The notes under the pieces are model-generated. The model saw only the letters and a list, made by a program, of their open reading frames with translations, ran no database searches and was not told the origin of the DNA. Below are positions 42,292 to 45,780 of a DNA stretch of 64,000 nt, piece after piece (positions within the stretch are counted from its first letter, which is position 1; every line of letters starts with the position of its first letter). Position numbers and translations under genes: made by a program. Where the stretch lies: assembly GCA_028281665.1 (NCBI GenBank), contig JANQJK010000010.1:62001-126000 (forward strand), given 5' to 3'. This DNA comes from Hyphococcus sp. GTDB lineage: Bacteria > Pseudomonadota > Alphaproteobacteria > Caulobacterales > Parvularculaceae.

Positions 42292-43098
42292 ATGGGACTG
42301 ACGGTGTTGGCGACGATTTCGACCATCTGTGTCGAGGCGGCGATATTCGGGAGCCCGACCGTTGCGGCTGCGACCAGCGAGCCTGTGACGACAGCGACGG
42401 TGCAGGCGACCGAAGGGCCCGCCGCGGTCGATGCGCCGGTCATAGATGATCTGACCGCGCCCCCGGTCGAGGACATTGCGGACGCGCCGGTCAGCAACAC
42501 AGATGACAATCTCATTTTGGATGAAGAACAATTCCTTGGTCCGTTGGCGTTTGAGGGGGAAAGCGACGATGCGGTCGTTGAGCGTCTGGTGTCCTATCTC
42601 GAAGGCGTCGACACCCTTAAAGGAGACTTCACCCAGATCGCCCCGTCAGGCGCCGTCTCGTCCGGGCGTTTCTTTTTGCGCCGGCCGGGCCTGTTGCGGT
42701 TTGAGTACGACCCGCCGACGCCGCTGCTGATCGTCGCCAATAGCGGGCTCGTTTATGTGCGCGACGAGGCGCTCGAAACGACGGATTCCTACCCGGTCGG
42801 GCGCACGCCGCTGAAATTTCTCCTGAGCGACACGATCGATCTCGATCGCGCGGAAATCGTCGCCGTCGACCGCGGCGTTGACACGGTGGCGGTGACATTC
42901 GCCTCTAAGGAAGAAGAGACCGAAGGAGAGTTGTCGGTGATCGTCTCGGCGCCGGAAATGCAGCTTACCCGGTGGATCGTCCGCGATCTGCACAATGGCA
43001 TTACCGTCGTGATGCTCGACAATGTCGCGGCCGGCGAACGCCTAGCCAATCGGCTGTTTCGGGCGCCCGAGGCCGGCGGCCAGTTCCTTAAAAATTAG
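42292..43098 (+). CDS. lolA: LolA-type outer-membrane lipoprotein carrier protein
   Basis: LolA chaperones lipoproteins across the periplasm from LolCDE to the outer membrane. The 268-residue product has an N-terminal hydrophobic stretch (to about VAAA, residue 27) and an acidic Pro/Ala linker to ~85. The LolA half-barrel follows: LVSYLEGVDTLKGDFTQIAP, SGRFFLRRPGLLRFEYDPPT, YVRDEALETTDSYPV, PLKFLLSD, then NGITVVMLDNV. The linker is longer than in enterobacteria. ATG 42292 has an AAAGGGG ribosome binding site, but the hydrophobic leader lacks basic residues, which are encoded in frame just upstream beyond a TGA. Confidence 0.9.
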   Translation: MGLTVLATISTICVEAAIFGSPTVAAATSEPVTTATVQATEGPAAVDAPVIDDLTAPPVEDIADAPVSNTDDNLILDEEQFLGPLAFEGESDDAVVERLVSYLEGVDTLKGDFTQIAPSGAVSSGRFFLRRPGLLRFEYDPPTPLLIVANSGLVYVRDEALETTDSYPVGRTPLKFLLSDTIDLDRAEIVAVDRGVDTVAVTFASKEEETEGELSVIVSAPEMQLTRWIVRDLHNGITVVMLDNVAAGERLANRLFRAPEAGGQFLKN

Positions 43099-43171
43099 CA
43101 ACCGCCCAGCAAAACCGGGCTTCATCCTTGTGTTGCGTAGTCACAATCAAGCAAATTCTTTCTCGACCCTA

Positions 43172-43201
43172 TTGAAAAATGGGTTGGTGATGCGTTAATG
43201 T
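43172..43201 (+). promoter_or_regulatory. Candidate promoter of the 43.2 kb small RNA
   Basis: TTGAAA (43172-43177), an 18-base spacer and TAATGT (43196-43201), matching sigma70-type hexamers. The expected start is near 43208. It lies ~75 bases after lolA, with a small GCCC..GGGC hairpin (near 43104-43120) between. Confidence 0.5.
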
Positions 43202-43207
43202 AACAGT

Positions 43208-43351
43208 ACGCGATTGGCGCTGACGTGGGCCGGCGTTGCCCCCCCGCTTGCAGGTCCAATAGCCCGTCGCGTCGCCGGAATATCCCCTCCCGGCGTAGGC
43301 GCAACAGCGCAGCTTGGCGTCCGATCTGACCAGGATCGGACGCCTTTTTTC
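43208..43351 (+). ncRNA. Candidate small non-coding RNA
   Basis: About 145 bases between lolA and the next gene, with no convincing ORF, framed by a promoter-like sequence and a strong terminator. Within it GCGCTG (near 43217) can pair with CAGCGC (near 43305), GTTGC (near 43234) with GCAAC (near 43301), and CGCCGG (near 43273) with CCGGCG (near 43290). It could therefore fold into a long bulged stem ahead of the terminator hairpin. I cannot match it to 6S, SRP, tmRNA or RNase P motifs. The 5' end is estimated. Confidence 0.5.
43316..43351 (+). terminator. Strong Rho-independent terminator
   Basis: A perfect 10-bp stem (GGCGTCCGAT / ATCGGACGCC), a 9-base loop and TTTTTTC. It is over 200 bases past lolA and before the next gene, so it most likely ends a separate short transcript. 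Confidence 0.9.
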
Positions 43352-43422: not shown

Positions 43423-44019
43423 ATGGATGACGCCGAGTTGGATGATCTGGAGCGGGAACTGCCCTCTTTGCAGGTGCTCACCCGGTTTTCCCGCAGCCTG
43501 GACCGAATTCCCTGGTTCGCCAATCTGGGCGAACCGCTTACCCCGGGCGCGCGCGCCGCGGCGACCCTTTATGCTGATCGTCTGGGGTTTCCCCATGCCG
43601 ATATCGCAATCCTCGTCGATTGGGAGGACGCCGCGGCCGCCGCCGAAAGTCTCGACTGGCAAAGCGACTGGTGGGAGGCGGAGGAGCTGTTGCGGTCCGA
43701 TTTGACGGCGCGGGCGCTTGAAACGCTTTCCGAGGACGCCCTGCGGATCGGCATGACCCTGATCGCCGACAAGGTGTCGGAGCCCGCGCGTGAAGGCATG
43801 GAACAGGCTGCGGTAATTTTTGACGCCGAGGACGAGGCGGCGCGCAATCTCGCGGTCGGCGCTGCGGTTCAGGCCGCCCACGGCGCAGCGCTGGTCCTGT
43901 TGGCCCTGCAAGACCCGGATTTTGACGATGAGGCGCACGCCTTTGCAGCGAAGTTCCAGCTTTTCGAATTCGGGCGCTGGCCCGTCGCCATCACCGGATC
44001 GTCCTTCAACCTGTTCTGA
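43423..44019 (+). CDS. Hypothetical protein
   Basis: A 198-residue acidic soluble protein that I do not recognise. It starts MDDAELDDLERELPSLQVLT. It contains FSRSLDRIPWFANLGEPLTP and GFPHADIAILVDWEDAAAAA, is rich in Ala/Asp/Glu helices and ends FGRWPVAITGSSFNLF. It has no signal peptide or membrane span. Base composition matches the genome. The likely ribosome binding site is the second GGAGG of the tandem repeat, 11 bases upstream. Its last 14 bases overlap the TauE/SafE gene tail to tail. Confidence 0.75.
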   Translation: MDDAELDDLERELPSLQVLTRFSRSLDRIPWFANLGEPLTPGARAAATLYADRLGFPHADIAILVDWEDAAAAAESLDWQSDWWEAEELLRSDLTARALETLSEDALRIGMTLIADKVSEPAREGMEQAAVIFDAEDEAARNLAVGAAVQAAHGAALVLLALQDPDFDDEAHAFAAKFQLFEFGRWPVAITGSSFNLF

Positions 44020-44794: not shown

Positions 44795-44976
44795 GGGCCT
44801 TGCGGTAGGGCCGATCGCCTGATTCGACAATGCGCCCGCTGCGAAATCTCTGCTGCGGTCTGGATCTGCACCGCGGTCTGGCCGTCGCCGGCGGCTGTCA
44901 TTGGCGGGTTGACGGCGCCGAGCGCCGGCCCTACCTCGCTGACCCCTCTCGCCGATTGGGCATCAAAGGCGCTCTC

Positions 44977-45780
44977 ATGAAAATCTCCACCTGGAACATC
45001 AATTCCGTCCGTCTGCGCATCGATCTGGTGACGCGCTTTCTCGATGAAGAAAAACCGGACGTGTTGTGCCTTCAGGAAATCAAGTGCCTTGAAGACAATT
45101 TCCCGTTCAAGGCGCTGCGCGATGCCGGGTACGACCATCTCGCCGTCTCCGGTCAGGCCGGTTATCACGGCGTCGCCATTGTCTCGCGCCTGCCGCTGAA
45201 AAAAGTCGAGAAGCGGGAGTTCTGCGGCAAGGGCGACGCCCGGCATATCGCTGCAAGTCTGCCCGGCGGTCTGCGCATTCACAATTTCTATGTGCCCGCC
45301 GGCGGCGACGAGCCGGACCCGAAGACGAACGACAAGTTCGCCCACAAGCTCGCCTTCATGGATGAGATGACGGACTGGTTTTCCGAGCTGGGCCCGCGCG
45401 CCAAGGCGATTGTGGTCGGCGATCTCAACGTGGCGCCGCGCGAACACGATGTGTGGTCGCACAAGCAGCTTCTGAAGGTCGTGTCCCACACGCCGGTGGA
45501 AGTCGAAAAGCTGGGCCGCGTCATCGACTCGCACGGCTTTGTGGATGTTGCGCGCGAGGTCGTTCCGGAGCCGGAAAAATTATATACGTGGTGGTCCTAT
45601 CGCGCGCGGGACTGGAAAGCGTCGAACCGCGGCCGCCGTCTCGACCATATCTGGGTCAGTCCGGCGTTGAAAAAGGCTGCGCTCGCGGCGGGGCGGACAA
45701 ACTTCCAGATTCACGAGGACGCCCGCGGTTGGGAGCGCCCGTCGGACCACGCGCCCGTGTCCCTCAAACTGGCGCTCTGA
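44977..45780 (+). CDS. xth: Exodeoxyribonuclease III
   Basis: Exonuclease III is the AP endonuclease/3'-phosphodiesterase of base excision repair. The 267-residue product has all core motifs: WNINSVRLR near residue 6, LCLQEIK with metal Glu near 34, GVAIVSR, GDLNVAPREHD near 149, RLDHIWVS near 223 and the catalytic SDHAPV near 259. ATG at 44977 starts the family sequence; the frame open from 44830 does not match. The TGA stop directly abuts the stop of the convergent PLP enzyme (TGATCA). Confidence 0.96.
   Translation: MKISTWNINSVRLRIDLVTRFLDEEKPDVLCLQEIKCLEDNFPFKALRDAGYDHLAVSGQAGYHGVAIVSRLPLKKVEKREFCGKGDARHIAASLPGGLRIHNFYVPAGGDEPDPKTNDKFAHKLAFMDEMTDWFSELGPRAKAIVVGDLNVAPREHDVWSHKQLLKVVSHTPVEVEKLGRVIDSHGFVDVAREVVPEPEKLYTWWSYRARDWKASNRGRRLDHIWVSPALKKAALAAGRTNFQIHEDARGWERPSDHAPVSLKLAL

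Follow-up and report, generated by a model that had tools for sequence, protein, structure and literature searches.

Does the DNA between lolA and a gene for a hypothetical protein in Hyphococcus sp. (Parvularculaceae) encode a small RNA and, if so, to which family does that RNA belong? The original prediction, made for the 64,000-nucleotide stretch of DNA analysed here (hereafter the window), had proposed a putative small-RNA gene equipped with a promoter and a terminator of its own; conservation, covariation and homology now support this proposal. It had left the RNA itself unidentified; on the basis of covariance model matches to rusT loci, we could assign it to the family of RusT (CCNA_R0199), a 118-nt, Hfq-bound and NtrX-repressed iron-stress RNA of Caulobacter whose gene in C. 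crescentus follows lolA and precedes xth (PMC11005374). Judged by sequence comparison, the element is a real conserved small-RNA gene and a homologue of RusT.

The RNA, of about 145 nt, would occupy positions 43206-43351 on the forward (+) strand (start placed by the -10 element, ±3). Its syntenic upstream neighbour is lolA (42292-43098, +; Pfam LolA, 81.5 bits). Downstream are a gene for a conserved hypothetical protein of 198 amino acids (43423-44019, +), for which a Pfam search gave no match and whose homologues lie 3' of the RNA in other families, then a TauE-like gene on the opposite strand, and xth (44830-45780, +), which encodes exodeoxyribonuclease III (Pfam Exo_endo_phos, 103 bits). 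Equivalent lolA/xth arrangements were found in relatives and in other families. Like RusT, the RNA lies after lolA, on the same strand, and before xth. Here the hypothetical and TauE-like genes intervene before xth, whereas in Caulobacter, and in all Caulobacteraceae loci that we read, the RNA directly precedes xth. Several families of the class also have the gene for the 198-residue protein as a conserved neighbour, placed after the RNA and before xth.

Known RNAs were screened for matches to the element, for which the original prediction had left 6S, SRP and others open. A search of Rfam 15 gave no family above the gathering threshold, and at E values up to 10 it returned only a P11 match, a chance terminator match; this agrees with the earlier statement that the element could not be matched to known housekeeping RNAs. 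Rfam has no model for a RusT-type RNA. 6S RNA (RF00013), which is of similar length, did not match at the element, and the true 6S RNA was found elsewhere in the genome (G000:C2, 64.6 bits). ChvR was also rejected, as it adjoins recF and is specific to C. crescentus. With regard to coding potential, no forward frame resembled a conserved gene, and indels between relatives were not multiples of three; the original prediction had already remarked that no ORF explains the region.

A DNA search of 60 genomes revealed the element in its own genome, in 26 of the 27 others of the genus (27/28 when its own genome is counted) and in four further genera of the family, with matches extending from near the -35 element to the terminator. 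The promoter, the C-rich segments and the terminator were conserved, and the spacer to lolA and the sequence past the terminator were not. The predicted promoter, TTGAAA-18-TAATGT, is present as described: the -35 element TTGAAA (43172-43177, +), whose TTGA is conserved in relatives, is followed after a spacer of 18 bases by the -10 element TAATGT (43196-43201, +), which is nearly invariant in relatives and lies inside the conserved block GATGCGTTAATGTAAC. Among same-genus genomes, the whole promoter block TATTGAAA...GATGCGTTAATGTAAC was nearly invariant. It should be noted that a generic sigma-70 promoter scan did not list this pair, because TAATGT matches TATAAT at only three of six positions.

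These upstream sequences bear on an alternative in which the element lacks a promoter of its own and simply belongs to the lolA mRNA as its 3' end, either as a structured 3' UTR or as an RNA derived from that UTR by cleavage. Our terminator scan found no terminator-like site in the interval from the lolA stop (43098) to the promoter, and therefore lolA transcripts probably read into the element, as this alternative would have it. However, the promoter block is nearly invariant at a fixed distance from the RNA start, whereas the lolA-proximal spacer is not, and the Caulobacter homologue is driven by its own regulated promoter, for which reporter activity and NtrX binding have been shown (PMC11005374). 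We consider a mere lolA 3' end improbable.

The consensus fold of the RNA consists of four stem-loops, the last being an intrinsic terminator, and four stem-loops were also found when RusT was probed (PMC11005374). Stem-loop 1 (43225-43259, +) carries a C-rich loop (C7 at 43239-43245), and six of the seven pairs in its outer helix showed compensatory changes. Stem-loop 2 (43273-43295, +) carries the loop CCCCUCCC (43284-43291), the equivalent of the RusT seed region around C53; it is nearly invariant, and therefore its own covariation is slight. Stem-loop 3 (43299-43310, +) is a small GCGC/GCGC hairpin with compensatory changes in three of four pairs. Over the whole alignment, such changes occurred in 18 of 33 pairs, and 94.7% of the cells were paired. 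None of 500 shuffles reached any of the five measures, a comparison in which related sequences can beat shuffles even without structure; the compensatory counts were large in stem-loop 1 and the terminator. When partners were slid as a control, pairing fell from 94.7% to at most 43%, although the structure was derived from the same alignment and is favoured in this control.

Stem-loop 4 (43316-43350, +), the terminator, reads GGCGTCCGATCT-GACCA-GGATCGGACGCC-TTTTTT. Its 12 pairs, the last of them G-U, make the stem slightly longer than the perfect 10 bp originally claimed, and the claimed run of six T was borne out. The mere presence of a terminator-like site is not significant, because four were found in the 3-kb region and shuffles give 2.9; the significance of this one lies in its strength and in its covariation (compensatory changes in 8 of 12 pairs). 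Against dinucleotide shuffles, the folding energy of the whole transcript had a z score of -4.0, and that of the transcript without its terminator was ordinary (-0.4). Therefore, folding energy alone is no proof of a structured RNA, and the case rests on comparison.

Such a structured element 72 bases before the gene at 43423, on the same strand, might also be a cis-acting leader or riboswitch-like element of that gene, which is indeed its conserved neighbour in many genomes. But a complete terminator closes the element, in Caulobacteraceae the RNA is retained immediately in front of xth, no riboswitch in Rfam matched, and the two C-rich loops show the conservation that would be expected of an RNA acting in trans by pairing. 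A leader of the hypothetical gene is thus very unlikely.

DNA downstream of lolA was collected from 40 genomes in four families of the order other than Parvularculaceae. The assignment to RusT was based on a covariance model (R1) built from an alignment of 37 sequences that included no Caulobacteraceae. The copy in the window, a member of the training set, scored 146 bits. At the held-out Caulobacteraceae rusT loci, R1 scored 34-44 bits in most and about 23 bits in two smaller genomes, with E values for most of about 1e-8 to 1e-10 over 55 kb, and it scored 38 bits at the rusT locus of the named C. vibrioides record. The Caulobacteraceae copies read GCCGGA...ATCCCCTCCCGGCG or close variants, followed by the terminator and xth. 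Among these loci, L068 has the sequence of the C. vibrioides DSM 9893 record and L066 that of C. endophyticus 774, a strain within the published RusT alignment (PMC11005374). Ten of the 35 lolA-downstream loci searched gave no match. In eight members of the order (L076, L078, L079, L088, L089, L091, L095 and L097), there was no R1 match 3' of lolA, and their RNA may have been lost, moved or diverged.

The two RNAs share the locus and its strand relation, the four stem-loops ending in a terminator, stem-loop 2 with its CCCCUCCC loop, and the presence of hfq and ntrYX in the genome; TonB-dependent receptors, whose mRNAs RusT targets, are likely targets here as well. In RusT, the seed is in stem-loop 2 (nt 45-57), where seed mutations including C53 were tested (PMC11005374); numbering of the C. 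vibrioides RNA from its inferred start places C53 within the CCCCUCCC loop, which is identical in the window. On the other hand, RusT has 118 nt as against about 145 nt here, it is without the additional C7 loop that stem-loop 1 has in the window, its stem-loop 3, through which RusT binds Hfq, differs in sequence, and its Hfq-binding patch (nt 72-87) is neither conserved in sequence nor recognizable here. A relationship instead to the CCUCCUCCC-loop RNAs of Rhizobiales (the SmelA075/SmelA099 families of Sinorhizobium), which likewise have several hairpins with anti-Shine-Dalgarno-like loops (PMC3927594), or to another anti-Shine-Dalgarno RNA, is extremely unlikely, as the RNA in the window has CCCCUCCC and C6-8 loops instead of CCUCCUCCC, the Rhizobiales RNAs are present in multiple copies whereas this one occurs once per genome at a different locus (lolA-xth), and the R1 matches to rusT loci already point to RusT.

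RusT has been described in Caulobacter and close relatives (PMC11005374, the one paper that we found), and the present results show a widespread alphaproteobacterial RNA with a fixed locus. In a scan of 289 genomes of the class, about eight families not belonging to the order contained strong R1 matches (42-99 bits); matches below about 33 bits were not counted as homologues. By tblastn, nearly all strong matches had one or more of lolA, the hypothetical gene and xth as neighbours; for L113 and L115, none of the three was found in the flanking DNA compared. Named records with full-length matches include Maricaulis, Marinicaulis, Parvularcula, Caulobacter, Phenylobacterium and strain SO-S41. 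Short DNA pattern matches in unrelated phyla (Streptomyces and Clostridiales) aligned to stem-loop 2 only and look like chance. The model and alignment are now available for finding RusT-type RNAs.

Further comparison of these copies revealed that the commoner form of the RNA has a second C-rich loop. In this form, stem-loop 1 presents C6-8 within GCGUUG-C7-GCUUGC and stem-loop 2 presents CCCCUCCC; most of the families that we examined, also beyond the order, have both loops. Caulobacteraceae have kept loop 2 and are without loop 1; the reverse holds for one genus of Parvularculaceae (L054-L056 and relatives), in which a shortened RNA retains loop 1 alone. Two other loci of that genus, L050 and L052, have a C-rich segment and no R1 match. 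The distribution across families suggests loss rather than gain of loops, the two-loop variant probably being the older form. The chances seem to us about equal that RusT is a reduced Caulobacteraceae form of an RNA found across several orders of Alphaproteobacteria, whose two anti-Shine-Dalgarno-like loops, each with its own outer-membrane or other targets, would have been lost independently (loop 1 in Caulobacteraceae and loop 2 in one Parvularculaceae genus). Lineages that lack one loop or the other in nature could be compared directly to assign targets to each loop.

RusT-type RNAs are thought to mask the ribosome-binding sites of outer-membrane transporter genes and thereby shut them down. 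We are confident, short of certainty, that the element in the window is a Parvularculaceae member of the RusT family with its own promoter, that loop 2 together with Hfq would block receptor translation, and that control by NtrX and iron would follow by analogy. Transcription from the promoter would run to the intrinsic terminator and yield about 145 nt of RNA, whose two C-rich hairpin loops are C7 (stem-loop 1) and CCCCUCCC (stem-loop 2). Assisted by Hfq, the latter loop may then pair in trans with ribosome-binding sites that are rich in G, such as GGGAGGGG, on TonB-dependent receptor mRNAs, and pairing there would block their translation. As in Caulobacter, NtrX might hold the gene off and disturbed iron homeostasis might switch it on; if so, iron and envelope signalling (NtrYX) would be coupled to receptor synthesis in bacteria other than Caulobacter. 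The conserved gene, its promoter, fold and synteny, the homology to rusT, the presence of hfq and ntrYX and the enrichment of the loop-2 complement were observed, and we infer transcription, Hfq binding, repression, NtrX control, the iron response and any role of loop 1 here.

With regard to targets, we compared the start regions of 32 TonB-dependent receptor genes with those of 565 other ORFs of this genome (G000). The background came from selected regions totalling about 0.75 Mb, in which receptor loci are abundant, and start codons were assigned by a simple rule biased towards strong Shine-Dalgarno sites. The duplex energy of loop 2 was -12.4 kcal/mol for receptors and -9.0 kcal/mol for other genes (p 9e-5); none of 300 shuffled seeds gave as extreme a difference, and the effect persisted after correction for anti-Shine-Dalgarno energy and G content (p 2e-4). 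Found without reference to the RNA, the most enriched 6-mer before receptors was GGGAGG (11/32 versus 11/565), and GGGAGGG, the complement of loop 2, preceded 7 of 32 receptors and 3 of 565 others. The genome contains ten GGGAGGGG-N2-9-ATG sites, five of which precede long ORFs, three of these being TonB-dependent receptors. Based on homology and this enrichment, TonB-dependent receptors are likely the target class. Loop 1 was rejected as a receptor seed, with no energy difference in this genome (p 0.12) or, for its own loop, in G028 (p 0.68).

Part of the receptor signal may be a receptor-specific style of Shine-Dalgarno sequence. In G028, which is without loop 2, receptors still favoured AGGGAGG (GGGAGG in 6/22 versus 9/284); GGAGGGG preceded none of the 22 receptors there, and no energy difference was seen (p 0.25). 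In C. vibrioides, the receptor enrichment was modest (p 0.005) and the anti-Shine-Dalgarno control was stronger. Receptor genes of both G000 (L240-L279) and G028 (L290-L309, loop 2 lost) were observed to favour AGGGAGG-type ribosome-binding sites and to avoid AGGAG.

The proposed partners are encoded in the genome: hfq is present, and NtrX (716 bits, cut-off 600) lies with NtrY beside it in the order ntrY-ntrX-trkA-trkH-aminotransferase-hfq-hflX. In Caulobacter, RusT is induced by DIP or zinc, and NtrX was found bound to the rusT promoter by ChIP-Seq and acts as a repressor, its site being unmapped there (PMC11005374). Upstream of the promoter in the window is a conserved, partly dyad-symmetric element of the type GTNAC-N3-GTCACA-nGCAAG (43130-43151, +), a candidate regulator site; nearly all relatives within the Parvularculaceae have it too, similarly spaced. 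Its counterpart in the C. vibrioides rusT promoter is a perfect dyad, TTGTGA-N5-TCACAA, and in both promoters the element is about 55-78 bases before the RNA start. As a guess, it is possibly an NtrX site. A second conserved and partly symmetric element (43190-43205, +) overlaps the -10 element and is another possible regulator site. Both elements recur in rusT-like promoters of several families.
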